Position numbers and translations under genes: made by a program. The notes below the pieces were generated by a model, which was given only the letters and a program-made list of their open reading frames with translations, searched no databases and was not told where the DNA came from. A stretch of 35,989 nt of DNA, taken from contig JABHHM010000281.1 of the NCBI GenBank assembly GCA_018671575.1, forward strand, positions 1 through 35,989. Direction: 5' to 3'. This DNA is from Methylococcales bacterium. Its GTDB lineage: Bacteria; Pseudomonadota; Gammaproteobacteria; JABHGC01. Positions 636-35,833 of the stretch are shown here, in pieces (position 1 is the first letter of the stretch; every line of letters begins with the position of its first letter).

Positions 636-2243
636 ATGTCTCAAGGTTTAACAAATATTGGTGGTTGGTCTCCTACAGAGTCTCATCCAGCATTTAATGC
701 AACAGAATTGGTCAGTGCAATACAAAGAGTTAGAGAGCCAATTCATATTGTCCAAAATGGTCAAGGTTTTTTAGGTCTGGGGTTGCAAGGCAATCTGTCT
801 ACGACAGTGGGTGACTATTCACTGCTTGCCAGTTTACCTGCACTTTATCCTGAATGGCTAGGTGATCGTGCATTTTTAGAAGCTCATGGAACTCGTTTTC
901 CTTATGTGGCTGGAGAAATGGCGAGAGGTATTGCCAGCACCCAAATGGTGATCGCTATGGGAAAGGCCAATATGATGGCTTTTTATGGCACAGCTGGATT
1001 ATCTTTGGATGTCATTGATGCAGGAATTACTGAAATTGAGAGTCATTTGGGAACAAATTGTACGTTTTGGGGAACCAACCTGATTCATGATATGAATGAT
1101 CCTGAAATAGAAGGGGCCGTGGTCAATTTATTTTTGAAGCGTAATGTGACCAGAGTCTCTGCGTCAGCGTTCATGTCTTTGACTCCTCATGTCGTTCGTT
1201 ATGCTTGTCATGGTTTACATCAGTCGGCTGATGGTCAGATTCAACGTAAAAATTATCTGTTTGCAAAAATTTCACGACCAGAAGTTGCCACTCATTTTAT
1301 GTCACCTCCACCTAAAAATATGTTGGATGATTTGGTTAATAACGGGCAGTTAACTCGTCAAGAAGCTGATCTGGCTTTACAGATGCCTCTCAGTGATGAT
1401 GTCACTGTTGAATCAGACTCAGGTGGACATACCGATAATCGACCTTTGTTAAGTTTATTTCCAACCATCAGAGAATTAAGAGATAAGCTAACCGCGCAAT
1501 ATAACTATTCACACAATATTCGTTTGGGGGCTGCGGGTGGTTTGGGTACTCCAGATGCTGTTGCTTCTGCCTTTGCTTTAGGTGCTTCTTATGTTTTAGT
1601 GGCATCAGTCAATCAGGCGGCTGTTGAATCTGGTTTGTCCGAAGATGGTCGCAATATGCTGATGAAAATAGAAATGGCAGATGTGGCAATGGCACCTTGT
1701 GCAGATATGTTTGAACTGGGCGTTAAAGTTCAGGTCATCAAACGTGGCAGCATGTTTGCCAATCGTGCATCACAGCTTTATGAGGTTTATAACTCTTGTA
1801 AAGGACTGGATGATATTCCTCCTGCCAAAAAAGCCATGCTTGAAAAGCAATTGTTTAAATCAACACTGGAAGCTACTTGGGAAAATACCCGAGCGTTTTT
1901 TATGCAACACAGCCCAAAAGAGGTTGAGCGTGCAGAAAAAGACCCGAAGCATCTAATGGCTTTGGTTTTTAGATGGTATCTTGGAAAATCCAGTCATTGG
2001 CCAATTTCTGGAGAATCAGAACGTCGTTTAGACTATCAAATATGGTGTGGTCCAGCGATGGGTGCATTTAATACTTGGGTGGCAGGGTCATTTCTGGAAG
2101 CACCTGAAAATAGAACGGTTGTTCAAATTGCAAAAAACTTGCTTGAAGGCGCAGCCATTGTAACACGGGCTCAACAATTAAGAAGTTATGGTTTACCTGT
2201 TCCAGCATCAGCATTTCATTTTACACCCAGAGTGCTGAATTAA
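636..2243 (+). CDS. pfaD: PfaD-like FMN-dependent enoyl reductase of a PUFA/secondary lipid synthase
   Basis: 535 aa; PfaD/FabK-like features (GLGLQGNLSTTVGDYSLLASLPALYPEWLGD, ...LGAAGGLGTPDAVASAFALGASYVLVASVNQAAVESG...). It sits directly upstream of PfaA/PfaC-like megasynthases. Confidence 0.92.
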   Translation: MSQGLTNIGGWSPTESHPAFNATELVSAIQRVREPIHIVQNGQGFLGLGLQGNLSTTVGDYSLLASLPALYPEWLGDRAFLEAHGTRFPYVAGEMARGIASTQMVIAMGKANMMAFYGTAGLSLDVIDAGITEIESHLGTNCTFWGTNLIHDMNDPEIEGAVVNLFLKRNVTRVSASAFMSLTPHVVRYACHGLHQSADGQIQRKNYLFAKISRPEVATHFMSPPPKNMLDDLVNNGQLTRQEADLALQMPLSDDVTVESDSGGHTDNRPLLSLFPTIRELRDKLTAQYNYSHNIRLGAAGGLGTPDAVASAFALGASYVLVASVNQAAVESGLSEDGRNMLMKIEMADVAMAPCADMFELGVKVQVIKRGSMFANRASQLYEVYNSCKGLDDIPPAKKAMLEKQLFKSTLEATWENTRAFFMQHSPKEVERAEKDPKHLMALVFRWYLGKSSHWPISGESERRLDYQIWCGPAMGAFNTWVAGSFLEAPENRTVVQIAKNLLEGAAIVTRAQQLRSYGLPVPASAFHFTPRVLN

Positions 2244-2367
2244 TTAAAACTATCTTTAGTAGCTATCAAATTTCTGAATAATGACTGTTTATGAGTCATT
2301 TAATGCAGTTGATACTAAATTAGCTAGTCATAATATACGTGTTTAATATAAAATAATGCCATTAAAA

Positions 2368-2391
2368 ATTCATTAAATTATTCATTAAATT
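2368..2391. repeat. Perfect tandem duplication of the 12-mer ATTCATTAAATT in the pfaD-pfaA intergenic region
   Basis: ATTCATTAAATT|ATTCATTAAATT read directly. Confidence 0.6.
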
Positions 2392-2456
2392 AAGTGTTAC
2401 AGGTTTTTTAGATTCATCTTTGGATACGAATCTGTAGATAAAATAAGGCGATAGAT

Positions 2457-5400
2457 ATGTCAAAAAAAATAAAATCTTCAGCTCAACAACCGATTGCAGT
2501 CGTTGGAGTGAGTGCTCTTTATCCAGGGTCATCTGCCGTTGATGGATTCTGGAAAAATATCATCAATGCAGAAGATCAGATCAGAGAAGTGCCACCAACG
2601 CATTGGTTGATTGAAGATTATTATGATCCCGATCCAACAGCCCCTGACAAAACTTACTGTAAAACAGGGGCGTTTCTTGATCCCGTTCCATTTAACCCAA
2701 TGGAATTTGGTATGCCGCCCAATGCCATGCCAAGTACGGATACTGCTCAACTGTTGGCATTGATTGTTGCTAAAAAAGTATTGGATGATGCATCAAACGG
2801 ACAATTTAAAGATTTAAATAAAGATAATATCAGTGTTATTTTAGGTGTTGCATCAGGTACTGAATTATTAAGTAATCTGGTCAGTCGTTTACAACGTCCT
2901 GTTTGGGTTAAAGCGTTACGAGAAACAGGTTTGCCTGAAAGCCAGGTGCAAGAAGCTTGTAATCGAATTTCAGATTCTTATGTGCCTTGGCAGGAAAGTT
3001 CATTTCCTGGTTTATTAGGTAATGTGGTTGCTGGTCGTATTGCCAATCGTTTTGATTTAGGCGGCACTAACTGTGTAACAGATGCTGCTTGCGCGAGTTC
3101 TTTGTCAGCAATGTCTATGGGAATCAGTGAGTTGTATCTTGGTCAATCGGATATGGTTATCACTGGCGGTGCTGATGCCTTAAATGAAATTTTAATGTAC
3201 ATGTGTTTCAGTAAAACACCTGCTTTTTCACCCACAGGTGATTGCCGTCCTTTTTCAGATAAAGGAGATGGTACAATTATCGGTGAAGGTATCGGTATGA
3301 TGGCATTACGTCGTCTGGAAGATGCAGAACGTGATGGTAATAAAATTTATGCAGTGATCAGTGGTTATGGAACATCTTCTGATGGTTCTGGAACCAGTGT
3401 TTATGCTCCAAAACCTGAAGGGCAAGCAAAAGCTCTAAGAAGAGCTTATAATGAAGCGGGTTATAGCCCATCAACTGTTGAATTGTTAGAAGCTCATGGC
3501 ACGGGAACTAAAGCAGGTGATAAGGCTGAATTTAATGGTGTGAATTCGGTGTTTTCTGAGAGCAGTCCTGATACTAAGCAGTGGTGTGCCATCGGTTCAG
3601 TAAAGTCTCAAATTGGTCATACCAAAGCTTCTGCTGGAATTGCTGGAATGATCAAGGCAGTGCTATCATTAAATAATAAAATATTACCACCAACTCTCAA
3701 AGTTGATAAACCAAATCCAGCTTTAAATATTGAGGAAAGTGCATTTTATATTAATACCAAAACCCGCCCTTGGATACGTGCCAGCGATCATCCAAGACGA
3801 GCATCCGTTAGTTCGTTTGGTTTTGGTGGCAGTAATTTTCACATGGCTTTGGAAGAATACAAAGGCGACTCAAAGCTAGCGACACGATTCAGGGCATTAT
3901 CCAGCGAAATGTTGTTAATGAGTGCCGATAACTCAGGTCATTTATTGAGTGATATTAAAAAACTTCAGGAAGAACTTAAAACAGAAAGTAATCTGATTAC
4001 TCTGGCTCATCAAAGTCAGCAAGATTTTAATGAAAAACAAGCGGTCAGATTAGCGATTATTGCAACGAATGATGCAGATTTAGCTGATAAATTAGGCAAA
4101 GCATCCGATAAAATTACCAAAGATGGAAAAGCTTCATTCAGTGTGCCTTCAAAAATGCATTACAGTGTTGATAAAGCGACAGATGGTAAAGTAGCGTTTA
4201 TCTTTCCAGGTCAAGGTAGTCAGTATGTTGATATGGGGGCTGAGCTGGCAATGGCATTTGGTTCTGCCAGATCAGTTTGGGATGACCAGGCCTCTAATAC
4301 AGACGAAACACCATTACATCAAATTGTTTTTCCTCAACCTGTTTTTAGCAAAGAAGATGAAGCGGCTCAAACAGCGACTTTAACAGAAATGGCATGGGCT
4401 CAGCCCAGTATTGCGGCAGTGAGTTTGTCTCAAATGGCCGTGTTAAATCAGCTGGGTTTGAAACCTGATTGTGTCTGTGGTCATAGTTTTGGTGAAGTCA
4501 CTGCTTTACACAGTGCAGGTGTATTTACTGAAAAAGATACCATTGAAGTGGCTCGAAAACGTGGTCAATTAATGACTCAAGCGGCGGCTGATACCAGTGG
4601 TGCGATGAGTGCTGTTTCCACTGACCGTGATACTTTAGAAAAGTTATTGACAGAATGGAATGTGGGTGTGGTGATTGCTAATCACAACAGTCCGTCACAA
4701 ATTGTTATTTCAGGTGAAACCAGTGCCATTGAGGAAGCTGAAAAACGTCTGAAAGAACAAAAGATCAGAGCCAAGAGATTGCCTGTTGCTTCTGCTTTTC
4801 ATTCGCATATTGTCAGTTCCAGTAGTAAACCATTTCATGAATTTTTAAATGGTTTGAAAACAAAATTACCAACCATTCCTGTTTATGCTAATACCACGGC
4901 TAAACCTTATGCGAAGAAAACAGCTACGATTAAAGAACAATTAGCCAATCAACTGGCTAATCAGGTGCGTTTTGTAGAACAGATTGATGCAATGTATGCC
5001 GAAGGTGTGCGCTATTTTGTTGAAGTGGGTCCTGGTAATGTACTGACTGGTTTGGTGAAAAAATGTTTAGAAGGTAGAGATCACACAGCGATCAATTTGG
5101 ATCGTAAAGGTCAAAGCGATGTCACCATGTTATGGAATGGTTTGGCTCAATTGGCTGTGAATGGTTTTGAAATGAATTACGCTTCGTTATGGCAAGATTA
5201 TCAACTTGAAGCCACTGCTCGTGAAAAAGTCAGTCCTCATGCCATGTATATTCAAGGTTCAAACTACAAAAAACCTTATCCACCGATTGAGGGCAGTGCG
5301 GCAATTCCTAAACCTAACCCAGAAAAACCAAAAGAAATACCTGTGGTCGCTAAACCAGCTGTGGCAGTAAGTACAGCAACACCTGTTAAAAAACAATCCG

Positions 5401-8400
5401 TTCAACAGCCTGTTGTTAGTACGCCACCAATGAATCAAACAACGTCACAGCCAGTTCAAGTTGCTAAGCCTGTGGTCAATAAACCCGTGATGCAACCCGT
5501 ACAACAAGTCTCATCGACGCAAAATACTAATGTTGACGGTATGTCATCATTCATGGCATTTCAAAAGCATACTGCTGATGCACATAATGTCTTTCAAACC
5601 ACCATGGCAGAAAGTCATCAAGCATTTTTAAATATGGCAGAAAGTGCATTGGCAGGTTTGTCTGGCGGTGTTCAACCAACAATGCCTGTACACCAACCCA
5701 TGGCGGCAACTCAAGTCACTCAATCTCAGCCCGTTGTATCAACGCCTGCGGTAGCTCAACCTCCTGTTGTGACGGAAACGCCTGCTCCAACTGTTAAGGT
5801 TGAAGCAACTCCTGTGGTTGCTAAAGTTACTCCTGCTCCTGTCGTTGAAAAGCCTGTTGTCGCTCCTGTGGTGGCGACACCTGCTATTGATATGAGAGCA
5901 ATTTTACTGGAAGTTGTGTCAGAAAAAACAGGCTACCCAGAAGAAATGCTGGATTTAGAAATGGAATTAGAATCAGGCTTAGGGATTGATTCAATAAAAC
6001 GAGTTGAAATATTATCTGCTTTTCAAGAAAAAGCACCTGGTTTGCCAGAGGTAGAACCAACTGATTTGGCTAATTTGAATACGTTGGGTGAAATTGTTGA
6101 TTTCATGCAAAGTAAAATGCCTGCGGGTTCAGCTTCAGCAACGGTTTCAATAGCCCCTGTTGCAACTGCTCCAGCCATTGATTTTAATAAGTTATTATTG
6201 GAAGTCGTGTCAGAAAAGACTGGCTATCCAGAAGAGATGTTAGATTTGGACATGGAATTAGAGTCAGGATTGGGTATTGATTCTATCAAGCGGGTTGAAA
6301 TTTTATCGGCTTTTCAGGAAAGAGCCCCTGGAATGCCAGATATTGAACCTACCGATTTAGCGACTTTGAATACGTTGGGTGAGATTGTTAGCTTTATGGA
6401 GTCAAAAGCTCCTGCTACAAGTCAAGCACCTGTCGTTACAGCAAACGTAGCTCCCAGTGTTGATCTGCAAAAAATCTTATTAGACGTTGTTGCCGAAAAA
6501 ACAGGTTATCCAACCGAAATGTTAGATTTGGAGATGGAATTAGAGTCAGGTTTGGGTATTGACTCCATCAAACGAGTTGAAATTCTATCTGCATTTCAGG
6601 AACAAGCACCAGGAATTCCAGAAATAGAACCCAATGATTTGGCGGTATTGAATACATTGGGTGAAATTGTCAACTTTATGCAAGCAAAAATGCCAGCAGG
6701 TTCTGCTCCAGTGAGTACGGTCACAACGACATCGAGTGCTACCCCAAGTGTCGATTTGAATGGTATTTTACTGAAAGTGGTTGCAGAGAAAACAGGTTAT
6801 CCAGAAGACATGATCGAAATGGATATGGAATTGGAGGCAGGTCTAGGTATTGATTCAATCAAACGAGTAGAAATTCTATCTGCATTTCAGGAACAAGCAC
6901 CAGGTTTACCAGAAATAGAACCCAATGATTTGGCTGTACTGAATACATTGGGTGAAATTGTCAGCTTTATGCAAGCAAAAATGCCAGCAAGCTCAGCTCC
7001 AGTGACCTCAACAGCTACGCCAAGTATTGACTTAAACGGACTATTACTTGAAGTTGTTGCTGAAAAAACAGGTTATCCTGTTGATATGATTGAAATGGAT
7101 ATGGAACTTGAAGCAGGTTTGGGTATAGATTCAATTAAACGAGTTGAAATATTGTCAGCCTTTCAAGAGAAAGCACCAGGTTTGCCAGAAATAGAACCGA
7201 CTGATTTAGCAACATTAAATACGTTGGGTGAAATAGTGGGTTACATGCAAAGCAAAATGCCATCGGCATCAGCAACAACTGCTCCAGTAGCTCAAAATTC
7301 AGCTCCCTCTGTAAATTTAGAAGCTATTTTATTTGAAGTGGTGGCGGATAAAACAGGTTATCCGACAGAAATGTTGGAAATGGACATGGAATTAGAAGGT
7401 GGGCTGGGTATTGATTCTATCAAACGAGTCGAGATTTTATCTGCATTCCAGGAACAAGCACCAGGATTACCAGAAATTGATCCTTCAGATTTGGCAAAAT
7501 TAAATACTTTGGGTGAAATTGTTGATTATATGGGACAAAAATCTGGCAGTGAAGTCACTACGCAGACTGCTCAAACTGTCTCAAGTGAGCCCGCTACCCA
7601 AGGAGTTGGACGCTATATTCTAAATGTGGTTGATTCTCCTGCAACTGGGTTACGGATGGCAGGTTTAACCAACGCCTCTAATATTGCAGTGACCAATGAT
7701 GGTCAAGGTATCGCTCAGCAATTGGTTGATAAATTACAAACACAAGGTTTAAAAGCCAGTCTGGTTGATAGTCTTTCCGCTGATGCCGATGTGGTTATTT
7801 ACATGGGCGGCTTAATCTCTGATGTCAATGCTGAATCAGCTTTGTCAATTAATCAAGGAGCATTTGAAGCCGCTAAAACAGTGGCTGCCAAATTTACTGA
7901 ATCAGGCGGAACATTTATTACAGTCCAAGACAGTGGTGGCCGTTTTTCTGTCAACAATGTTTCAGTCGATAGGGCATGGGCAGCGGGTTTAACGGGATTG
8001 GTTAAAACAGCCGCTCTTGAATGGCCTAAAGCAACATTAAAAGCAATTGATATTGAGTCTGCTGGTCGAAACAGTGATGTAATTGCACAAGCCTTAATGA
8101 ATGAGTTGATGGAAGGTGGCCCTGAAATTGAGGTGGGTTTATCAGCCAGTGGTAATCGCATTACTTTGGTGAGTGAGCAAGCACTGTTAGATGGGGCTGG
8201 AGAGGCAATATTGAATGCCGATTCTGTGTTAGTAGTGTCGGGTGGCGCTAGAGGTGTAACAGCCGCAACACTCAAAGGTTTGGCAAAAGCCTATCAACCT
8301 AAAATGGTTTTGCTTGGACGAACTCCATTAGAAGATGAACCTGATTATTGTGTCAATCAGCTGGACGAAGCTTCTCTAAAACGTGCATTACTTACCGCCG

Positions 8401-9884
8401 CTAAAGATCAAGGGCGTAAAATTACACCGATTGAATTGGGTCAAGAAGCCAGTAAAATTATTGCCATGAGAGAAGTCAAAGGCACATTAGCTGACATCGA
8501 AAAAGCAGGTTCAAAAGTCAAATACATTGCGACTGATGTGAGAAATTCTGAGGCATTAAAAACTTCGCTTGATCCTATCAGAGCAGAGTGGGGTGCTATT
8601 ACAGGTTTAATTCATGCGGCAGGCACTTTGGCAGATAAAAATATCAAAGACAAAACCGTTGAACAATTTGAAAGGGTTTTTCAAACCAAAGTTGCTGGCT
8701 TAGCTGGATTACTGGATGCCACAAAAAATGATCCATTGAACGTGATCTGTCTGTTTTCATCCGTCGCAGGACGTGGTGGTAATGTCGGACAATGTGACTA
8801 TTCAATGGCCAATGAAGTATTGAACAAAGTTGCTCAGGCAGAAGTGGTGAGACGTGACGGTAAGTGTCTTGTTAAATCAGTAAACTGGGGGCCTTGGGAT
8901 GGTGGTATGGTGACACCTGCTTTGAAAAAACATTTTCAATCCATGGGTATTGATCTGATTTCATTACAAGATGGTACCGATTATCTGGTTCAAGAATTGA
9001 CCAATATTGATCGTGGTCAAATTGAAATCGTAGTGGGCGGTGCTGCTCGGGAAATGCCTCAGTTTTTAGCGGCCAATTCGCAAGAAAAAAAAATGGAACT
9101 TTGGGTCAATAAAGAAAAATATCCTTACTTATTGAGTCACCAAATCAAAGGTAAGCCCGTTATTCCTATGATGCAGGTTGTAGAATGGTTCATGAGAATG
9201 GCACAAGCCAATCGACCTGATTTACTGCCAGTCTCATTAATGAACATTAAAGTGCTGAAAGGTGCAATGCTGGAAAATTATGAGGGAGTGGGTGATCAAC
9301 TGTGGGTGAGTTGTCAGGAAAATGCCGATGATCCGTTAAGTTATGAGTTATCTTTGTTGTCTGCTAACGGCATCAAACATTACAGTGCCATGATGAAAAT
9401 GGATTTAAGATCAAGAAAAACCAATGCATCATCTGATGCGTTGAAAATATCTAATGATAACTTTAAAAGCTGGCCTTGGCAGTCGAATGAAATTTATGGT
9501 GATAAATTGTTCCATGGTGATGATTTTCATGTTATTTCTGAGCTGGAAGGTGTGTCTGCCGATGGTGGTGAAGCCGTCTTAGAAGGAACAATTGATAAGC
9601 AATGGCCAAATGGTCCATGGTTGACAGATACTGCGGCTCTTGATGGCGGTTTACAGTTAGCAATCCTTTGGGGAATTCAGCAGTCAGGTAAAACATCATT
9701 GCCCACAGGTTTTGAAGCGTTTATTCCGCATTCAACTAAAGCCATTGAAGGTCCTGTTCATTGTCGTTTTAAGTCTCGTATGGTGGGTGGCTTGCGATCT
9801 GAAAATGATCTGCTTTTTACCTCAAAAGATGGTGAGGTGATTGCCGAGCTGAAAGGTTTGCAAATGCACATGCTTGAGAAATAA
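2457..9884 (+). CDS. pfaA: PfaA-like multidomain PUFA synthase subunit (KS-AT-6xACP-KR-DH)
   Basis: 2475 aa. KS active site TDAACASS (Cys codon 3090-3092); AT GHSFGE (about 4479-4496); six LGIDSIKRVEIL ACP motifs; KR VSGGARGVTAAT; C-terminal polyketide-type DH (LLSHQIKGKPVIPMMQV ... TAALDGGLQLAILWG). Confidence 0.95.
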   Translation: MSKKIKSSAQQPIAVVGVSALYPGSSAVDGFWKNIINAEDQIREVPPTHWLIEDYYDPDPTAPDKTYCKTGAFLDPVPFNPMEFGMPPNAMPSTDTAQLLALIVAKKVLDDASNGQFKDLNKDNISVILGVASGTELLSNLVSRLQRPVWVKALRETGLPESQVQEACNRISDSYVPWQESSFPGLLGNVVAGRIANRFDLGGTNCVTDAACASSLSAMSMGISELYLGQSDMVITGGADALNEILMYMCFSKTPAFSPTGDCRPFSDKGDGTIIGEGIGMMALRRLEDAERDGNKIYAVISGYGTSSDGSGTSVYAPKPEGQAKALRRAYNEAGYSPSTVELLEAHGTGTKAGDKAEFNGVNSVFSESSPDTKQWCAIGSVKSQIGHTKASAGIAGMIKAVLSLNNKILPPTLKVDKPNPALNIEESAFYINTKTRPWIRASDHPRRASVSSFGFGGSNFHMALEEYKGDSKLATRFRALSSEMLLMSADNSGHLLSDIKKLQEELKTESNLITLAHQSQQDFNEKQAVRLAIIATNDADLADKLGKASDKITKDGKASFSVPSKMHYSVDKATDGKVAFIFPGQGSQYVDMGAELAMAFGSARSVWDDQASNTDETPLHQIVFPQPVFSKEDEAAQTATLTEMAWAQPSIAAVSLSQMAVLNQLGLKPDCVCGHSFGEVTALHSAGVFTEKDTIEVARKRGQLMTQAAADTSGAMSAVSTDRDTLEKLLTEWNVGVVIANHNSPSQIVISGETSAIEEAEKRLKEQKIRAKRLPVASAFHSHIVSSSSKPFHEFLNGLKTKLPTIPVYANTTAKPYAKKTATIKEQLANQLANQVRFVEQIDAMYAEGVRYFVEVGPGNVLTGLVKKCLEGRDHTAINLDRKGQSDVTMLWNGLAQLAVNGFEMNYASLWQDYQLEATAREKVSPHAMYIQGSNYKKPYPPIEGSAAIPKPNPEKPKEIPVVAKPAVAVSTATPVKKQSVQQPVVSTPPMNQTTSQPVQVAKPVVNKPVMQPVQQVSSTQNTNVDGMSSFMAFQKHTADAHNVFQTTMAESHQAFLNMAESALAGLSGGVQPTMPVHQPMAATQVTQSQPVVSTPAVAQPPVVTETPAPTVKVEATPVVAKVTPAPVVEKPVVAPVVATPAIDMRAILLEVVSEKTGYPEEMLDLEMELESGLGIDSIKRVEILSAFQEKAPGLPEVEPTDLANLNTLGEIVDFMQSKMPAGSASATVSIAPVATAPAIDFNKLLLEVVSEKTGYPEEMLDLDMELESGLGIDSIKRVEILSAFQERAPGMPDIEPTDLATLNTLGEIVSFMESKAPATSQAPVVTANVAPSVDLQKILLDVVAEKTGYPTEMLDLEMELESGLGIDSIKRVEILSAFQEQAPGIPEIEPNDLAVLNTLGEIVNFMQAKMPAGSAPVSTVTTTSSATPSVDLNGILLKVVAEKTGYPEDMIEMDMELEAGLGIDSIKRVEILSAFQEQAPGLPEIEPNDLAVLNTLGEIVSFMQAKMPASSAPVTSTATPSIDLNGLLLEVVAEKTGYPVDMIEMDMELEAGLGIDSIKRVEILSAFQEKAPGLPEIEPTDLATLNTLGEIVGYMQSKMPSASATTAPVAQNSAPSVNLEAILFEVVADKTGYPTEMLEMDMELEGGLGIDSIKRVEILSAFQEQAPGLPEIDPSDLAKLNTLGEIVDYMGQKSGSEVTTQTAQTVSSEPATQGVGRYILNVVDSPATGLRMAGLTNASNIAVTNDGQGIAQQLVDKLQTQGLKASLVDSLSADADVVIYMGGLISDVNAESALSINQGAFEAAKTVAAKFTESGGTFITVQDSGGRFSVNNVSVDRAWAAGLTGLVKTAALEWPKATLKAIDIESAGRNSDVIAQALMNELMEGGPEIEVGLSASGNRITLVSEQALLDGAGEAILNADSVLVVSGGARGVTAATLKGLAKAYQPKMVLLGRTPLEDEPDYCVNQLDEASLKRALLTAAKDQGRKITPIELGQEASKIIAMREVKGTLADIEKAGSKVKYIATDVRNSEALKTSLDPIRAEWGAITGLIHAAGTLADKNIKDKTVEQFERVFQTKVAGLAGLLDATKNDPLNVICLFSSVAGRGGNVGQCDYSMANEVLNKVAQAEVVRRDGKCLVKSVNWGPWDGGMVTPALKKHFQSMGIDLISLQDGTDYLVQELTNIDRGQIEIVVGGAAREMPQFLAANSQEKKMELWVNKEKYPYLLSHQIKGKPVIPMMQVVEWFMRMAQANRPDLLPVSLMNIKVLKGAMLENYEGVGDQLWVSCQENADDPLSYELSLLSANGIKHYSAMMKMDLRSRKTNASSDALKISNDNFKSWPWQSNEIYGDKLFHGDDFHVISELEGVSADGGEAVLEGTIDKQWPNGPWLTDTAALDGGLQLAILWGIQQSGKTSLPTGFEAFIPHSTKAIEGPVHCRFKSRMVGGLRSENDLLFTSKDGEVIAELKGLQMHMLEK
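5890..7545 (+). repeat. Array of six tandem acyl carrier protein domains within PfaA
   Basis: Six copies of a roughly 80-aa unit with (L/M)E(L/A/G)...GLGIDSIKRVEILSAFQE, separated by Ala/Pro/Thr/Val-rich linkers. Confidence 0.93.
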
Positions 9885-9885
9885 C

Positions 9886-12800
9886 ATGTCGGAACCTATC
9901 GCAATTGTAGGACAATCCTGCGTTTTACCTGGCGCACTCAATGCTGACGAACTTTGGTCAGCAGTGCAACAGGGACAAAATTTAATTTCATCGGTGCCAG
10001 CAGGTTATTGGCGCATTAATCCTGATGCAGTTTTGCAAAATGGCTCGGGTTCATTGCCCGCCAATGAACGTGCCAGAACAGATCGAGGTGGTTATGTCAG
10101 TGGTTTTGGTGACATATTTAATGCTGATGGTTTTGCCATATCTAAAGAGACAATCCTGTCATTAGATACGGCATTTCAATGGCTGTTACATAGCTCAAGA
10201 CAAGCATTGTCATCGGTTGCCTCAGTCGCTCAGCTACAACATCGTACCAGTGTGATTTTTGGTAATTTATCGTATCCATCACACAATTTAACGCAATTGG
10301 CTGAGTCAATTTGGCTACAATCTAATCAGCATTTATTAAATGGTCAAGCAGCTGAATTGGCTGGCATTGTTCAACCTGCTTTTCAAAACAGATACATGTC
10401 AGGTTATCCTGCTCATGTTGTTGCGAATGCACTTGGACTCGGTGGCGAATCATTTTGTCTGGATGCGGCTTGCGCTTCATCACTGTATGCCTTGAAACTG
10501 GCTTGTGACAAATTAAATTCTGGTCAATCTGATTTGGTATTGGCTGGCGGTATTAATTGTGCCGATGATTTGTTTTTACATGTTGGGTTTTCAGCATTGC
10601 AGGCATTGAGTAAGTCAGGTCAAAGTCTGCCATTCAATAATCAGGCAGATGGCTTATTACCTGCCGAAGGTGTTGCTGTAGTTGCGCTTAAGCGTTTAGC
10701 TGATGCAGAAGCCCAAGGCGATGATATTTTAGCCGTTGTTCGTGGAGTTGGATTATCCAATGACGGTCGCAGTGGTAGCTTTTTAGCACCAGCGATGCAA
10801 GGCCAAGTTCGGGCAATCAAAGCCGCCTATCAGCAATCAGGTTTAAATCCCAAAGATATTTCTTTAATGGAATGTCATGCCACGGGAACGCCTGTGGGTG
10901 ATACAGAAGAAATTAAAAGTATGTCGGAAGTTTTTAAAGACAATCATGACATGCCGATTGGTTCATTAAAATCCAATATGGGGCATTTAATCACTGCTTC
11001 TGGCATGGCTGGGTTAATGAAAGTCATTGCCAGCATGAAAGCTGGTGTCAGACCACCGACTTTAAATACCGAAACTCCAATCGATATTTTATCAAGTTCA
11101 CCTTTCAGATTACTCAAAGAGGCTGAGCCTTGGGAGTGTAATGGTCTGAAACGTGCGGGTATTAATAATTTTGGTTTTGGTGGTAATAATGCACATTGTA
11201 TTGTCGAAGAGTATCAACAAACTGCCGAAGCTTATCAGCCCAAAATAACATCAGGTGCTTCATCTGAAATTGCCATTGTTGGTATCGATATTATTGCGGG
11301 ATCAGCTGATAATATTGCGACTTTTGCTCAAGATGTCTTTTTAGAAAATCGTCAGACCAACCCTCAAATAAAATCTTTCGAGCTATCTTTAAAGGGCTTG
11401 AAATTTCCACCGATGGATTTAAAGAAAAGTTTGCCGCAACAAACCATCATGATGAGTGTGGCGCGTGGTGCGGTGGCTGATGCAGGTGGTTTGACAGGCT
11501 ATGAAGCAACAACGGGTACTTTTATCGGTATGCAGTGTGATGCTGAAATTGCTCGTTTTGGTGTGCGTTGGAGAATGTCAGAATGGGCTGAAAAATGGTC
11601 TCACTCCAGTCAAACAGAATTTGATACTCAATGGTCACAACAGGCACGAGATGCGGCAGGGCCATTCCTTGAGTCAGCAGGTGTGGTTGGTGCGATGCCA
11701 AATATTCCTGCCAATCGTTTAAACAGTCAGTTTGATTGGGGTGGTTACAGCTTTGTGACTTGCAGTGAAGAACTCTCAGGTATTGTGGCATTAAATACTG
11801 CCATTAGTGCTTTGCAGAACAATGAACTGGATGTGGCGTTGGTGGGAGCAGTTGATCTTAGTTGTGAACCCGTCAATCAAACGGCCGCCACTCATACTTT
11901 ACCTGTGACTCGTCATCAAGCAGGAGATGCGGCTGTTGCTTTGATCTTGAAAAGAGCTGATGATGCCCGAAAAGATAATGATAAAATTTATGCCATTGTT
12001 TCAAATGATTCACAACAATCCTCAAATTATCAACTGGGGTTAGATTTAGACGAAAACAGTAGTTATATAACACAACGTTTTGGTCATTCACATTGTACAT
12101 CTGGTTTATTGCATATAACCGCTGCTGCCTTAGCCTGTTCTTCTCGTATTCAGCCGTATTGGAATTCAAATTCAGCAGACGAAAATAATTATTCAACTCA
12201 AGTCACCATTCAATCATTTAGTGGACAACAATCAACAATAAAACTATCTGGAGATGCAGAACATCGCACCAATTTGTTGACGGAAAAGGGGATTTCATTG
12301 GCTACACAAAACAAGCAGGGAGCAGGTAATGCTCCCTCATTACAATTTAATGCACATTATGATAATGTGCAATTTCCTGCAAAAACAACCAATTTAGCAA
12401 CCGCTAGTTCGAGTGCTGAAGAGTCAATGGCTCCACCGCCCATGTTGCCATCGGTGATGAATCAAATACCTGTTATGTCAACGCCTGTTGCCGTACCTAA
12501 TAATCAAGCAGAAGCCACTCAAAATGTAGCGACATCGGTTGTGGTGCAACCTCAAGTGCAACAAACCAGTCAAGCAGGTTTGCAGGCAACTAGCACTACC
12601 GTTGCACAGCAAACGGTGGTTGTGACTGGTGTTGACCCTGTGAGTGATTTGTTGGCTCAAGCTTCGGCAATGCATCAAAACTTTATCAAGCAACAATCGC
12701 AATTACATCAACAGTTCATGTCTTTGCAACAACAGGCATGGGGACAAAATACATCAAACAATATGACTCCATCGGTGGCAGAAAATTATCCTGCTGAGTC

Positions 12801-15800
12801 TGCCGTTGTGAGTGAATCGCCCATATCTCAACCAACATCTCAAGAAAGCATCAATGTTCCACCGCCAGTAATGGTTGAACCTGCTATTGCTAAACCCGTT
12901 GTTAATCAAGAAATTACTACTTCAACAACAAAACAAGAGGTGCCCTCTAAACCAAAAGAAACTTCAACTGCTACTCAAGAAAATAATATTGATTCTACCA
13001 GTAAAGCACCTGTTCCTACGGGGCCAAAGTTTTCTCGTGAAGACTTAGAAGTATTGGCATCAGGTAAAATATCATCTGTTTTAGGGGCATTATTTGAACA
13101 ACAAGATCAATATGATATTCAGGTGAGAATGCCAGAACCACCGTTGTTACTTGCTGATCGTGTAACGGGAATTAAAGGTGATGCAGGCTCAATGGGGACG
13201 GGGACTATCTGGACAGAAACAGATGTGCCAAAAGATGCCTGGTACTTGCATCAAGGTGCTGTACCTCCTGGGATTATGATTGAATCAGGTCAGGCTGATT
13301 TGTTATTAATTTCCTGGTTAGGTGCTGATTTTCTTAATAAAGGCGAAAGAGCTTATCGTCTATTGGGTTGTGAATTAACTTACCATGAAGGTGGAATGCC
13401 TCGTCCTGGTGATACTCTTTGTTATGATATTCACGTTGATGGTCATGCCAAGCATGGCGATGTTCGTTTATTCTTTTTCCATTACGATTGTCGCGTCAAT
13501 GACCAATTAAAACTCTCTGTCCGTCAGGGACAAGCTGGGTTTTTTAACACCGAAGAGCTGGCTGATTCAGGTGGCGTATTATGGAGTGCAGAGGACGACG
13601 AACCTAAAGAAAATGCACAAATGGCTCCATCTCCTGTTGAATGCAAGCGCACTAGCTTTAGCAAAGAATTGGTTCAAGCATTCGCCGAAGGTCGAGCTTA
13701 CGAATGTTTTGGTGAAGGTTTTGAAGCAACTGCCGCTCATACTCGAACGCCAGGGATTCCCACGGGTAAAATGAAAATGTGGGAAGAAGTGACCGAACTA
13801 TCTTCACGTGGAGGACCTTGGAAACGTGGTTATTTAAAAATTGAAACTCCGATTACCAAAGATGATTGGTATTTCAAGGGTCATTTTAAAAATGACCCTT
13901 GTATGCCTGGCACATTAATGGCCGATGCCGCAGTACAAACCATGGCGTTTTACATGGCATCTCAAGGTTTTACATTACACCGTGATGGTTGGCATTTTGA
14001 ACCAATGCCTGATGAAGCTTATAAATTTGTTTGTCGTGGACAGGTACTACCACATGCCAAACATTTAACCTATGAATTGTATGTCGAAGAAATTATTGGT
14101 GGAGACACTCCTACTATTTATGGCGCAATGTTATGTACTTGTGATGGGCAAAAAGTATTTCAATGTCGACGATATGGTCTGCGTTTAGTACCAAATTGGC
14201 CATTAACCAGTATGCCAGAATTATTAGAAGGTCATGAAGCTCCACGAGTGGTGGGTGAGTCTGGTGATGTTTGTGGTGACTATTCTGCGTTATTGGCTTG
14301 TGCGTGGGGTGCGCCAACTGCCGCCTTTGGTCAAATGTATAAGCGTTTTGATGGACCTTGCACAGTACCTAGATTACCAGGGCCTCCGTATCACTTTATG
14401 TCAAAAGTATTATCGGTTGAAGGTCATCCAGGTAAACCAGAACCTGGCAAAAAATTGATTTCAGAATACGATGTTCCACCTGATGCTTGGTATTTTAATG
14501 AAAATGGTCATGCAGTCATGCCATTTTGTGTGCTGTGTGAAGTATTGTTACAACCTTGTGGTTGGTTTGGTTCTTTTATGGGTTTTGCAACTCGCAGTGA
14601 TAATGATTTGTGTATCCGTAATTTGGATGGTGATTCATCAAAACAATTGATTGAATTGGGTAGAAATTTTGGTACTTTAAGAATTGAAGTAACACTCACC
14701 AAACTCAGTCAAATGGGGCCAATGGCATTGGTGTTTTTCCATGTTGACAGTTACAAAGGTAATGAATTAGTTCATACACTGAATACGTCTTTTGGTTTTT
14801 TCAGTCAGGAAGCTTTAGTGACTCAGCTGGGTCTACCAGTTACCGATGAAATTCGTGAATTAAGAGACAAAGAATCAGATTATTTTGTCGATTTAACTGA
14901 AAAGCCAGAAAAATTCTGTGCAGGGTCTCTCCGAATTGCCAATCCAATGTTACGAATGATCGACCAGTTAACGGGTTATTGGCCAGAAGAAGGTGATGCT
15001 GGGTTGGGTCGAATTAGAGCCAGACAAACCGTTGATCCTGATGCGTGGTATTTCAAAGCTCACTTTTTCCAAGATCCCGTTCAGCCTGGTTCTTTAGGTC
15101 TTGAAGCTTTATTACAATTGTTGCAATGTTACATGATTGAAAAAGGATTGGATGCGGGTCTCAAAGAGCCACGTTTTGAAGCCATTGCGATGAATGAAGA
15201 TATGATTTGGAAATATCGTGGACAGGTCGTTCCAAGCAAAGAATTTGTCACCACTGAATTAGAAATCACCAAAGTTGTGCGTGATGAAAACAGCATTGTT
15301 GCAATTGCCAAAGGTAACTTATGGTGTGATGGATTAAGAATCTATTCTGTTGAAAACATGGCAATGAGAATTACTGATGGTGCTTTTCCCAAAACCACAA
15401 TTACCAGTTCTCAGCTAAAAGACGCCGATCCTACTGGAGAGAGTCTAAAAAAAATTCTAAAATCTGATATTTGCGGTGAAATTGTCCTGCATAAGGACAA
15501 TTCTCCATGGATTTCAGATCATTGCCCAACTTATACTGTGCCTGCTTTACCCATGATGGTGATGGTGGATTACCTTGCCAGTGCCGCACATGATGGTTTT
15601 CCAGAGATGAAAGTGGTTGGTTTGCAAGATGTTCAGGTTTTTCGTTGGGTTTTGATTGAAGAATCGGTGCGCCTAAAAACAGAAATAAAAGAACTAGACA
15701 ATAATAAATTGGAAGTTACCTTGTTGCTGTGGCGCGATGCAGACATAGAAAAACTATCCCGTTTTGAACCTGCCGCCAAAGGCATTGTGACACTGGCAAA

Positions 15801-17583
15801 AAATTATGCGGGAAACAATAACAAATTATCCAATTTAGAATCAGCAAAAATAGCTGAAAGTAGTTACGAATCAGGTGCTTTATTTCATGGGCCTGCGTTT
15901 CAAATTATGAAATTGTTACAAATAGGAAAAAATGGTTCTGCGGCAACACTAGATGCTGGGGCAGGACAAGTTCCTACTGGCTATTTAAACCCTGTTTTAT
16001 TGGATGGCGCAACTCATGCCATACCTCACGATAAATTAAATCAGTGGTTTGATGCTGTTCAATCAGATCAAGTGGCTTATCCTCACAAAATTTCATCCAT
16101 TAGTTTTCATCAAGCAACTCCTTTGTCAGGCAATGTTTTTTGTGAAGTTCGAGCCAAGACATTTGAAGATAATCGTCATCCTATTTTTCAAATTCAATTG
16201 AGTGTTGATGATAAAGTCTGGATGGAAATGGAACTGATGGAAATCATGTTTCCAAAAGGAAATTTAGGTAATGCTCCATCGGAAGATCGACGAACCTTTC
16301 TACAAGAAAAAGGTTTCGTTCAAGACTTGGGTTTATCTGAAGTGGATGGGCAATGGAGTAAATTATCACACCAAACGGTTAAAATGACCAATTGGTTGCC
16401 AGGAACACTGGAAAATGTCTATCAGTTTAGCAGTAAAGGCAGTAAATTAACTCAGCACATTGTGACAAAAGAACATTTTGCCAGACAACAAAATATTCAT
16501 CCTAGCCAAGTGACCATCAAGGGAGATTCAGCTTATTGTCAAAATATGCCTTTAACAGAATTTCCCTATAAAACGTTTAGTAATAATGATGCAGTGAGTG
16601 TGCAGAATGCTGGTGATCCAATTTTAAATATTGACCCCGTATTATCGTATTGGCGTGATCGATTAGATGCAACCAGTGCATGGCCAGTGGAAGACATATT
16701 TTTTGCCTTGATCAGACGTTTTGTCGGTAAAGTTTATTTGACTGACCCTAAAAAGTTTTACTCGATAAAAGGCAGAAGTGTTTTATATTTGGGTAATCAT
16801 CAAGTGGGTATTGAATCCCTGTTATTTTCAGTCATTGCTGGTGGTTTAAATCATGTGCCAGTGGTGACTGTTGCAAAGGCTGAACATAAAAATACTTGGT
16901 TAGGCCGATTAATTGCACTTTGCCAAAATTATCCTGGCAAAAACTTACCAAAAAACATTATGTTCTTTGAGCGAGCAGATCAAGCCAGTATGTTAAAAAT
17001 GCTGGCTGATATCAAAGAGTCATTAGTGAAAGAAGGTTTGTCATTAATGGTACATTCAGAAGGAACCAGAGCGTTGCATTGTGGCGAACCAGTGAAAAAA
17101 CTCAGTTCGGTTTTTATTGATTTAGCTGTGGCCGCTAATTTGCCGATTGTTCCAGTACGTTTTTCTGGTGGTTTACCTTCAACCAATGCAGAAGATTCAT
17201 CTCGCTTTGAATTTCCAATCGGCTATGGCAGACAAGATTATTATCTAGGTGCTCCTATAATGCCTGAAGATTTGAAAAAATTAACCCTGGCAGAGCGAAC
17301 CCGTTTGGTGTTAGGGGCATTGAATACCTTGGGGCCTGATTTGGAGCAAGAAGAACCCAATAATCCTAATCCTGATTTTGCCAGTCAAGTCAAAGCATTG
17401 AGCAAAAAAATGTCAATGCCTCCTGAATATGCAGCGATTTTCAGAACATTAAAAGATGATAGTCGAGTGAGTCAGCAAATGCAGAAGTTTTTTGATAATG
17501 CAAAAAGTGGTCGAAAATTACTATCAAATAATCCAGAGGACAGTTGGTTGTCTAGTTTTGGGAAATGGTTGGGGATTAAGTGA
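9886..17583 (+). CDS. pfaC: PfaC-like multidomain synthase subunit: KS, chain-length factor, four FabA-like hotdog repeats, PS-DH-like region, C-terminal PlsC/AGPAT-like acyltransferase
   Basis: KS motif LDAACASS (Cys 10471-10473); CLF with TCSEELSG; DAWY/DDWYF...G hotdog motifs x4; HGPAF plus LDGATHA PS-DH motif; acyltransferase motifs GNHQVGIES and SEGTR. The track start at 9874 is a TTG; ATG at 9886 (MSEPIAIVGQSC) is one nt after the pfaA stop and more likely. Confidence 0.93.
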   Translation: MSEPIAIVGQSCVLPGALNADELWSAVQQGQNLISSVPAGYWRINPDAVLQNGSGSLPANERARTDRGGYVSGFGDIFNADGFAISKETILSLDTAFQWLLHSSRQALSSVASVAQLQHRTSVIFGNLSYPSHNLTQLAESIWLQSNQHLLNGQAAELAGIVQPAFQNRYMSGYPAHVVANALGLGGESFCLDAACASSLYALKLACDKLNSGQSDLVLAGGINCADDLFLHVGFSALQALSKSGQSLPFNNQADGLLPAEGVAVVALKRLADAEAQGDDILAVVRGVGLSNDGRSGSFLAPAMQGQVRAIKAAYQQSGLNPKDISLMECHATGTPVGDTEEIKSMSEVFKDNHDMPIGSLKSNMGHLITASGMAGLMKVIASMKAGVRPPTLNTETPIDILSSSPFRLLKEAEPWECNGLKRAGINNFGFGGNNAHCIVEEYQQTAEAYQPKITSGASSEIAIVGIDIIAGSADNIATFAQDVFLENRQTNPQIKSFELSLKGLKFPPMDLKKSLPQQTIMMSVARGAVADAGGLTGYEATTGTFIGMQCDAEIARFGVRWRMSEWAEKWSHSSQTEFDTQWSQQARDAAGPFLESAGVVGAMPNIPANRLNSQFDWGGYSFVTCSEELSGIVALNTAISALQNNELDVALVGAVDLSCEPVNQTAATHTLPVTRHQAGDAAVALILKRADDARKDNDKIYAIVSNDSQQSSNYQLGLDLDENSSYITQRFGHSHCTSGLLHITAAALACSSRIQPYWNSNSADENNYSTQVTIQSFSGQQSTIKLSGDAEHRTNLLTEKGISLATQNKQGAGNAPSLQFNAHYDNVQFPAKTTNLATASSSAEESMAPPPMLPSVMNQIPVMSTPVAVPNNQAEATQNVATSVVVQPQVQQTSQAGLQATSTTVAQQTVVVTGVDPVSDLLAQASAMHQNFIKQQSQLHQQFMSLQQQAWGQNTSNNMTPSVAENYPAESAVVSESPISQPTSQESINVPPPVMVEPAIAKPVVNQEITTSTTKQEVPSKPKETSTATQENNIDSTSKAPVPTGPKFSREDLEVLASGKISSVLGALFEQQDQYDIQVRMPEPPLLLADRVTGIKGDAGSMGTGTIWTETDVPKDAWYLHQGAVPPGIMIESGQADLLLISWLGADFLNKGERAYRLLGCELTYHEGGMPRPGDTLCYDIHVDGHAKHGDVRLFFFHYDCRVNDQLKLSVRQGQAGFFNTEELADSGGVLWSAEDDEPKENAQMAPSPVECKRTSFSKELVQAFAEGRAYECFGEGFEATAAHTRTPGIPTGKMKMWEEVTELSSRGGPWKRGYLKIETPITKDDWYFKGHFKNDPCMPGTLMADAAVQTMAFYMASQGFTLHRDGWHFEPMPDEAYKFVCRGQVLPHAKHLTYELYVEEIIGGDTPTIYGAMLCTCDGQKVFQCRRYGLRLVPNWPLTSMPELLEGHEAPRVVGESGDVCGDYSALLACAWGAPTAAFGQMYKRFDGPCTVPRLPGPPYHFMSKVLSVEGHPGKPEPGKKLISEYDVPPDAWYFNENGHAVMPFCVLCEVLLQPCGWFGSFMGFATRSDNDLCIRNLDGDSSKQLIELGRNFGTLRIEVTLTKLSQMGPMALVFFHVDSYKGNELVHTLNTSFGFFSQEALVTQLGLPVTDEIRELRDKESDYFVDLTEKPEKFCAGSLRIANPMLRMIDQLTGYWPEEGDAGLGRIRARQTVDPDAWYFKAHFFQDPVQPGSLGLEALLQLLQCYMIEKGLDAGLKEPRFEAIAMNEDMIWKYRGQVVPSKEFVTTELEITKVVRDENSIVAIAKGNLWCDGLRIYSVENMAMRITDGAFPKTTITSSQLKDADPTGESLKKILKSDICGEIVLHKDNSPWISDHCPTYTVPALPMMVMVDYLASAAHDGFPEMKVVGLQDVQVFRWVLIEESVRLKTEIKELDNNKLEVTLLLWRDADIEKLSRFEPAAKGIVTLAKNYAGNNNKLSNLESAKIAESSYESGALFHGPAFQIMKLLQIGKNGSAATLDAGAGQVPTGYLNPVLLDGATHAIPHDKLNQWFDAVQSDQVAYPHKISSISFHQATPLSGNVFCEVRAKTFEDNRHPIFQIQLSVDDKVWMEMELMEIMFPKGNLGNAPSEDRRTFLQEKGFVQDLGLSEVDGQWSKLSHQTVKMTNWLPGTLENVYQFSSKGSKLTQHIVTKEHFARQQNIHPSQVTIKGDSAYCQNMPLTEFPYKTFSNNDAVSVQNAGDPILNIDPVLSYWRDRLDATSAWPVEDIFFALIRRFVGKVYLTDPKKFYSIKGRSVLYLGNHQVGIESLLFSVIAGGLNHVPVVTVAKAEHKNTWLGRLIALCQNYPGKNLPKNIMFFERADQASMLKMLADIKESLVKEGLSLMVHSEGTRALHCGEPVKKLSSVFIDLAVAANLPIVPVRFSGGLPSTNAEDSSRFEFPIGYGRQDYYLGAPIMPEDLKKLTLAERTRLVLGALNTLGPDLEQEEPNNPNPDFASQVKALSKKMSMPPEYAAIFRTLKDDSRVSQQMQKFFDNAKSGRKLLSNNPEDSWLSSFGKWLGIK
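16630..17340 (+). other. Acyltransferase (PlsC/AGPAT-like) domain fused to the PfaC C-terminus
   Basis: GRSVLYLGNHQVGIESLLFSV ... FFERADQASMLKMLADI ... LMVHSEGTRALHCG ... LPIVPVRFSGGLPS, the order of lysophosphatidate acyltransferase motifs. Confidence 0.8.
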
Positions 17584-19648: not shown

Positions 19649-20056
19649 TTAGATTTCTGAATGTAAAGTTATTGGCAGAATTTCTGAATAATAATTAAAG
19701 TCTTTGTCGCAAGTAAATATACTGATCTGTAGTCTATGGGCTACAGAACAGATTATAAAGTCAATATGTGAGCCTTGAATACCTTTTTTTCTGCAAAGAT
19801 TATAGAATTCAGCGGCAACGGTATAGTCTTCGTCAATGATGGTTTCATTTGGAAAGAAACTTAGTTTGTTTTTAAGCTTGTTGCATTGTTTCGGATCACT
19901 ATAACCAGATAAAACTTCTTGCCTTATTGGTCCAATAATTTTCACTTTTTCATTACAAATTAGTTTTGTTAGTTTTTGAGATATAATTTTTTCTCTAGGC
20001 TGTTTGCCACGTAAAGCTAGTGACCAGATGCAAGTATCAACAAGCGTTGTTTTCAC
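19649..20056 (-). CDS. PIN-domain ribonuclease toxin (VapC-like)
   Basis: LVDTCIWSLALRG at the N-terminus, conserved acidic residues, GSHIDFIICSVAHRLQISIFTCDKDF. GTG start overlaps the upstream stop (TAGTG). Confidence 0.85.
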   Translation of the reverse strand: MKTTLVDTCIWSLALRGKQPREKIISQKLTKLICNEKVKIIGPIRQEVLSGYSDPKQCNKLKNKLSFFPNETIIDEDYTVAAEFYNLCRKKGIQGSHIDFIICSVAHRLQISIFTCDKDFNYYSEILPITLHSEI

Positions 20057-20247
20057 TAACGTCCCTTTTTGTAATCGTAATCATCATCAGCTGGAAATTG
20101 TCCAAATAATTCGATAATTTCACGCTGTTTATGTTTTTCTATAAATTCTTTAAGGGCAGCATTTACCGTATCTTTTTTTGATTTATAGCCACCGACTTGT
20201 AATGCTAAATCTAATAAACTATTATCCAGTGCTAAATTAGTTGCCAT
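20056..20247 (-). CDS. VapB-like antitoxin
   Basis: MATNLALDNSLLDLALQVGGYKSKKDTVNAALKEFIEKHKQREIIELFGQFPADDDYDYKKGR, directly upstream of the PIN gene. The internal ATG at 20247 preceded by AGAGAAA is a better start than 20277. Confidence 0.82.
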   Translation of the reverse strand: MATNLALDNSLLDLALQVGGYKSKKDTVNAALKEFIEKHKQREIIELFGQFPADDDYDYKKGR

Positions 20248-20340
20248 GATTTTCTCTTTACACATTGGTTTACACAATGATATTATAGCTGAAACATTAA
20301 TGAAAATTCAATTCTATTTTACAACTCAAATCAATTAATC

Positions 20341-32569: not shown

Positions 32570-32755
32570 TGTGGGTAGGTGTTTTTCTTGAATTAATAAA
32601 ATTTATAAGCTATGTATAGTTTTTCATGGAATTTTAATAGATAATTGTATGCATTATATGATAAAACGTCGATATCATAAAAAATAAGAATAATAAAATT
32701 CCTGAATTATAAAAAATAACCACAATCATTGGTTTCAAATGGTTGCATAAGCTAT

Positions 32756-35700: not shown

Positions 35701-35833
35701 TGGAAAAAAGAAAGTTGGACGAGGTGGTAGTTGGGTCGTGCATTATCAATTGTCCCGCTGTGCTGCAAGGCGAGATGGTGAAAAAAATAAGAAAGCCAAT
35801 GATTTAGGTTTCCGTTTGATAAAGCTGAATTAA
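32756..35833 (+). CDS. Exported protein with PEGA-like repeats and a C-terminal formylglycine-generating-enzyme-like (SUMF1/FGE) domain
   Basis: Signal-like MIIKKIKWSVVLGGCLISQWVMA; three PEGA-like units (about 34250-34890); MEFMGVPGGCFQMGSVDG...VHEVCVDDFFMGKFEVTQKQW...FRLPSEAEWEFACRG...GLYDMSGNVWEWIEDGY...GRGGSW...DLGFRL. The internal ATG at 32756 is a better start than 32729. Confidence 0.88.
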   Translation: MIIKKIKWSVVLGGCLISQWVMADTGLSVCDLQSVLKFNSQQLSAKAVKNKIISSQIVHSNNELNAAKSNIKNCNLAIKQKLVSNQREISTLMSIQSDIIANRDFSTINLQTTQYRNAQKTIRNILPKHLKGVKYKGLFLTLIKYPSYFESKKSLKSMAHNIIEKDAIVSMNRMFLKTVPKLSISNAMKSEINQLISGNMVLEENYLSESNPSKKVYFNLSKISVKPVEAGSSALNSTEYPGYQSKVFFIEDNQWQNSLAGWGVSDKQIKKINKVVNTFSSSVKNENSRIQSKQQEAILDMASQIGQYENKINKLEQQKQQQLKILSSSYIKIGLECNNLLYRCVNHALSTIKATVNEKNQQLVSLKQFDLFYKEGTVAIKNSPAQDIAKYVMELMNQMISQYETLNPVAEISNNKASTSQLNWNQYQMKRGLKNFWVYIVPQEEDMFYVLTSTQFKIKTSREKISFQPHVMAKNSQVDTINCLKEIPNSLLKNTPLIHLTVKFNVEGANVRIMNISEKYYPGILLYPGAYHLEVNKEGFDVWKKWVYLSHSDMTVNVSLKKSNATINDALNKYALTVKTMPLSANIKIMNIDPKYSAGMLLKPQYYDVQVTKRGYHHSRQWLKMDNKDLTVSVNLRKKDVKDVGFLTLNSNYADATVYIDRQLMNNRFNKQIKLSSGLHEVVVEKPGYRCWNQSFDLKKSEKVKLYAVLTPKKIIKLKNIKPVLTENNIVKTKPIQSQPPLKSSSLVKKVELTPKPTIKQKKINKIAPIMKAPSNLMVGKTWTENKTNMEFMGVPGGCFQMGSVDGISNEKPVHEVCVDDFFMGKFEVTQKQWNLVMGNNPADFQSWVQKTDDYPVESVSWEDVQSYVSKLNQMTGHVFRLPSEAEWEFACRGKSHQDIFSGGNSSVTVDEIANICDKKCQYEWRSKQHDDGYEKISPVGLKKPNSYGLYDMSGNVWEWIEDGYDELAYEKHLNKNPLITGGKKKVGRGGSWVVHYQLSRCAARRDGEKNKKANDLGFRLIKLN

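Follow-up and report, generated by a model that had tools for sequence, protein, structure and literature searches.

A Type L secondary-lipid synthase locus of the AT2-less form in a Methylococcales bacterium, and the absence of fabD from the fatty acid synthesis operon of its host

The Type L secondary-lipid synthases are defined by a pfaD gene at the 5' end of the cluster and a fused pfaBC gene (KS-CLF-DH2-AT), and their described members come from Sorangium, Plesiocystis, Streptomyces, Nakamurella and the gammaproteobacterium Saccharophagus degradans (Shulse & Allen 2011, PMC3098273). The characterised myxobacterial relatives produce PUFA (PMC6731297, PMC8436480), and the AGPAT step of myxobacterial Pfa systems has been described (PMC6731297). 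In Aetherobacter and Minicystis, Pfa3 carries an internal acyltransferase (AT2) between CLF and DH (PMC6731297, PMC8436480), whereas Pfa3 of Sorangium cellulosum So ce56 has none (PMC4882568, PMC8436480); linoleic acid is the only PUFA made by S. cellulosum (PMC4882568). The Type A/B pfaABCDE clusters of Shewanella, Photobacterium and Moritella have the gene order A-B-C-D, a separate pfaB acyltransferase and no fused AGPAT.

Gene layout and phylogenetic position of the locus

The stretch analyzed here (the window) corresponds to contig C32 in its full length, 35,989 nucleotides from a Methylococcales bacterium whose assembly comprises 3.87 Mb in 524 contigs, with an estimated completeness of 90.5%. 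Since the window is the complete contig, sequence upstream of base 1 cannot be read. The contig begins with three long ORFs on the plus strand, in the order D-A-C (Table 1). The ORF list, matches far above the TIGR02814 and TIGR02813 cutoffs for the first two ORFs and the Pfam domains of the third bear out the first-pass annotation of these as PfaD-, PfaA- and PfaC-like. The pfaC-like gene most likely starts at the ATG at 9886, immediately 3' of the pfaA stop codon; with the TTG at 9874 that was listed as its start, it would overlap pfaA.

Table 1. Features of the pfa locus in the window
Feature	Position	Strand	Evidence
pfaD / pfa1, enoylreductase (ER), 535 aa	636..2243	+	TIGR02814 pfaD_fam, 629.7 bits, cutoff 449 (NCBIfam)
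pfaA / pfa2, KS-MAT-6xACP-KR-PS-DH, 2475 aa	2457..9884	+	TIGR02813, 2016.8 bits, cutoff 1010; Pfam domains
PfaA ketosynthase (KS), DAACASS	2457..3866	+	Pfam and motif
PfaA malonyl-CoA transacylase (MAT), GHSFG, AFHS	4197..5120	+	PF00698; 33% identity to FabD of same-family genome G001
PfaA six tandem ACPs, GIDSIKR in each	5904..7556 (approximate limits)	+	6 PP-binding stretches (Pfam)
PfaA ketoreductase (KR)	8157..8996	+	PF08659
PfaA PKS-like dehydratase	9027..9881	+	PF21089 and PF14765, both under curated cut-off
pfaC-like / pfa3, KS-CLF-linker-DH'-DH2-DH'-DH3-DH4-AGPAT	9886..17583	+	Pfam and homologue comparison
PfaC KS, DAACASS	9886..11238	+	PF00109
Chain length factor (CLF), SEELSG, without active-site Cys	11254..12168	+	second ketoacyl-synt stretch
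CLF-DH linker, site of AT2 in Aetherobacter/Azospirillum-type proteins; AT absent here	12169..13017	+	0 Pfam families; 283 aa gap
FabA-like dehydratase/isomerase region DH'-DH2-DH'-DH3, GHFKNDPCMPG, AHFFQDPVQPG	13018..15483	+	4 PF07977 stretches
PKS-like dehydratase DH4, DHCPTYTVPALP ... LLDGATHA	15529..16323	+	weak PF14765; 78 aligned homologues
C-terminal AGPAT / PlsC-type acyltransferase	16534..17553	+	PF01553; HX4E motif; AF2 pLDDT 93.9; Foldseek

The domain set reads ER / KS-MAT-ACPx6-KR-DH / KS-CLF-(no AT2)-DH-DH-DH4-AGPAT. As in Type L (PMC3098273), the pfaD homologue is the 5'-most gene of the cluster, PfaA has the form KS-MAT-ACPn-KR (n=6), and the last protein is a KS-CLF fusion with two DHs and a C-terminal acyltransferase (two PF00109, four PF07977 and a terminal PF01553 match), with no pfaB; nothing differs in the domain order tested, and the window forms a separate deep branch. 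Among the three ORFs the only malonyl-type acyltransferase (Acyl_transf_1, PF00698) is in PfaA, as the annotation had stated, and its claim that PfaB is missing also holds: in the host assembly, which is 90.5% complete, the search gave neither a stand-alone PfaB nor another stand-alone PF00698 protein. The homology to Type A/B clusters extends to PfaA, the PfaC core and PfaD, and the PPTase is separate in both; the Sfp-type PPTase of the host is encoded on contig C423.

With So ce56 the locus shares the D-A-C order, the AGPAT fused to Pfa3 and a Pfa3 without AT2; So ce56 is a myxobacterium, and this likeness is drawn from its published description, the sequence compared being that of the AT2-bearing So ce26. 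Gene order and AGPAT are also common to the Pfa1-3 systems of Aetherobacter and Minicystis, the latter with a DH4 as in the window, and to an Azospirillum lipoferum plasmid homologue whose protein is 46% identical to the window PfaC. All of these differ from the window in having AT2.

On quick LG+G4 trees of PfaC and of PfaD plus PfaA the window falls within the Type L radiation, an outcome foreseen in the annotation as telling against its reading. It groups with a set containing Sorangium So ce26, Azospirillum and mycobacterial loci. On the PfaC tree the Azospirillum protein, which bears AT2, is the sister of the window sequence (SH-aLRT 100; window end branch 0.55), a pairing on which the PfaD plus PfaA tree does not agree. 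The locus very probably represents a Type L secondary-lipid (PUFA) synthase of the AT2-less subset seen in So ce56. The novelty read into the locus by the annotation does not stand: the layout is already described, belongs to the published Type L cluster, and has the same domain set as that type and its So ce56 form (PMC3098273, PMC4882568, PMC8436480).

The G+C content of the pfa genes (636-17583) is 0.41-0.42, against 0.347 for the remaining contig (17600-35989), an offset that is compatible with horizontal acquisition. Beyond the locus, the minus strand has two short ORFs that overlap each other (19649-20277) and resemble by eye a putative VapBC/PIN toxin-antitoxin pair. A large protein with a PEGA repeat and an FGE-sulfatase domain (32729-35833) adjoins an RsmJ-like methyltransferase (PF04445).

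AT2 and AGPAT among Type L-like loci

Relatives were collected by searching genome contigs with an alignment as query; the bare C-terminus as query had matched nothing. At least 80 related loci were found, spread over Myxococcota, Acidobacteriota, Planctomycetota, Verrucomicrobiota, Actinomycetota (mycobacteria), Cyanobacteriota and Pseudomonadota; the order PfaD-PfaA-PfaC, with DH4 and AGPAT, recurs in many. Among the matches listed, 63 Type L-like loci were readable across the AT2 region; AT2 is absent from 41 and present in 22, as judged by PF00698. The distance from CLF to DH is bimodal: loci lacking AT2 have 142-354 aa and AT2-bearing ones 580-961 aa, and the window has 283 aa. The annotation was right that the window linker (given as about 12180-13020) has no acyltransferase: Pfam, the comparison with homologues and the gap length all rule out an AT there. 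A scan for GHSxG would be insufficient by itself, since AT2 of Azospirillum reads GLSSGE.

The AT2 state was mapped on a PfaC tree of 69 sequences built from KS, CLF and DH with the AT2 columns omitted. Thirteen changes of state are needed, of which at least 10 are forced by well-supported branches. AT2, which corresponds to the product-determining PfaB, has thus been gained or lost many times while the fused AGPAT was retained, so that these loci provide natural pairs for asking whether AT2 sets chain length. Because its domain set is that of published Type L and the AT2-less form is common among relatives, the locus adds a member to a known type; Type L itself is widespread yet has seen little characterisation, and the window locus is an ordinary member of it. 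In contrast to So ce56 of the literature, Pfa3 of So ce26 carries AT2 (locus L064, 12371-13591), so the linoleic-acid-only rule may not cover the whole species S. cellulosum.

The first-pass annotation had likened the locus to a myxobacterial layout minus the extra acyltransferase. The myxobacterial likeness and the lack of PfaB and AT2 stand, but the fused AGPAT is present; both it and DH4 had been omitted from that reading of the pfaC-like protein. The AGPAT domain is real. It matches the PF01553 Acyltransferase family (9e-9 in the full protein, 5.1e-10 for the domain alone), as do all 45 homologous C-termini scanned. Motifs I-IV are present (NHQVGIE, FFER, SEGTR, IVPV), and N88, H89, Q90, E94 and G177 are invariant in the 45-sequence alignment. 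A profile search of solved structures gave PlsC (5KYM) as the nearest relative. The AlphaFold (AF2) model, made from an alignment that left out one row from a plasmid collection, shows an acyltransferase fold with confidence (pLDDT 93.9), and its Foldseek matches, GPAT1, squash GPAT and PatA, have the glycerolipid acyltransferase fold. Motif I (approximately 16783-16803) reads NHQxxxE, that is HX4E where HX4D is canonical, and HX4E occurs throughout 80 aligned Type L homologues; with E94 invariant, it is a subfamily trait and not damage in the window protein. We assume the domain to be catalytically active with this variant motif.

Predicted product and off-loading

The comparisons above show the domain content of the locus and its membership of Type L; the product, its chain length and the off-loading reaction we infer from the domains. 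The six ACPs would be activated by the host's Sfp-type PPTase, whose gene lies outside the window, malonyl units would be loaded by the PfaA MAT, and elongation would proceed by the PfaA KS and the PfaC KS-CLF, each round being processed by KR, the DHs, the FabA-like DH/isomerases and PfaD to give methylene-interrupted cis double bonds. PfaB acts at a late stage as an acyltransferase, and flux past C18 requires it (PMC12895367). Without PfaB and AT2 the chain would probably stop at about C18 (linoleic-type), and the fused AGPAT would take the completed chain over from ACP and attach it to 1-acylglycerol-3-phosphate (lysophosphatidic acid), yielding phosphatidic acid directly. The annotation's proposal of off-loading unlike that of the studied EPA systems fails as stated because this AGPAT is present. 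By analogy, a C18 PUFA delivered to lysophosphatidic acid seems the most likely product. The chain length is predicted from the lack of AT2 in So ce56, the linoleic-only profile of S. cellulosum (PMC4882568) and the role of PfaB (PMC12895367), that is, from one AT2-less producer and the PfaB of another type; that relatives without AT2 also occur in lineages without known products counts against it.

Two other products were considered, both improbable. The function of AT2 or PfaB could be supplied in trans by another acyltransferase or a thioesterase of the genome, giving a long-chain PUFA of the EPA/DHA type. The repeated switching of AT2 among otherwise similar synthases suggests that its loss may be easily compensated, and the genome holds two further AT domains, in a PKS-NRPS on contig C515 and a PKS fragment on C185. 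These are, however, cis domains of PKS/NRPS proteins, the assembly yielded no stand-alone PfaB, and the described AT2-less S. cellulosum makes only linoleic acid as PUFA (PMC4882568). Slightly better odds attach to a non-PUFA long acyl chain, a secondary lipid that the acyltransferase would hand to another acceptor to form a special membrane or storage lipid. Many secondary lipid synthase types have products that are non-PUFA or unknown (PMC3098273), Foldseek matches of the AGPAT model are to GPAT1, squash GPAT and PatA, enzymes with acceptors other than LPA, and motif I is HX4E in the AGPAT homologues. Against this, the histidines and acids of the FabA-like DH/isomerases are intact in the PfaC-like protein, as expected for cis double bonds, and the characterised myxobacterial relatives make PUFA. 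The linoleic-type C18 PUFA is preferred to either.

The host fatty acid synthesis operon and fabD

The part of this analysis worth following is the state of fabD in the host rather than any novelty of layout. The fabD gene is usually essential. On host contig C409 (L121, 5107-5143) the order is fabH-fabG-acpP-fabF, with fabD cleanly missing and about 33 bases from fabH to fabG; the one same-family genome compared (G001) has plsX-fabH-fabD-fabG-acpP-fabF. An AT search of the 90.5% complete assembly found no stand-alone FabD, returning only the PfaA MAT, the PKS-NRPS AT on C515 and the PKS fragment on C185. With G001 FabD as query, the PfaA MAT is the best match in the assembly (33% identity), and the alignment shows the GHS, Arg and His of FabD conserved in it. 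The PKS-NRPS of C515 (L122, L123) is a single ORF of 7478 aa across the contig, with KS-AT followed by repeated C-A-T modules.

In Photobacterium profundum fabD is dispensable, mutations in fabD and pfaA are synthetically lethal, and an E. coli fabD deletion is rescued by pfa genes; it was concluded that the PfaA MAT stands in for FabD, and suggested that other bacteria with Pfa may also do without fabD (Allemann & Allen 2021, PMC8174602). The host may likewise have lost fabD naturally, its housekeeping FASII depending on malonyl-ACP from the PfaA MAT, a possibility that we advance tentatively and consider less likely than not. With the assembly 90% complete, fabD may sit in the missing part, and the ATs of C515 and C185 are alternative candidates for its role.

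As a control, 7 of 140 genomes of the same class with completeness of at least 95% lack any AT, a count that misses genomes having PKS ATs but no FabD. Two of the 7 are genomes of 0.3-0.4 Mb, four have a weak AcpP match or none, and in the last one fabG is followed by the contig end. A second Type L carrier, a gammaproteobacterial MAG (G174, locus L091), has plsX-fabH-347 bp-fabG-acpP-fabF, and no FabD remnant was found in the 347 bp gap (contig C453, L168 4409-4756). On a FabF plus AcpP tree the FabD-bearing G001 is sister to the host, so the losses in G174 and the host are separate.

FabD above the cut-off is missing from 8 genomes with Type L loci in addition to the host, among 24 genomes excluding mycobacteria; two mycobacterial genomes with a lower-scoring FabD-like ORF of 322 aa were not counted. 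In seven of these 8 the arrangement is plsX-acpP or acpP-fabF, with fabH, fabD and fabG all absent from it. Among relatives of one carrier (G168), 34 of 40 genomes lack FabD above the TIGR00128 cut-off, and ATs within very long ORFs occur in nearly all. That Type L generally leads to loss of FabD is ruled out by the shared arrangement and by this FabD-poor lineage, which also indicates that FabD absence has other routes and counts against replacement by the PfaA MAT. Among these Type L carriers, only the host and G174 have a fab operon that is standard except for the missing fabD.

If the PfaA MAT does supply the FASII of this host, the host would be a natural counterpart of the laboratory result in P. 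profundum and E. coli (PMC8174602). A "secondary" lipid synthase would then have made an essential gene of primary metabolism dispensable in nature, and deletion of pfaA should be lethal.
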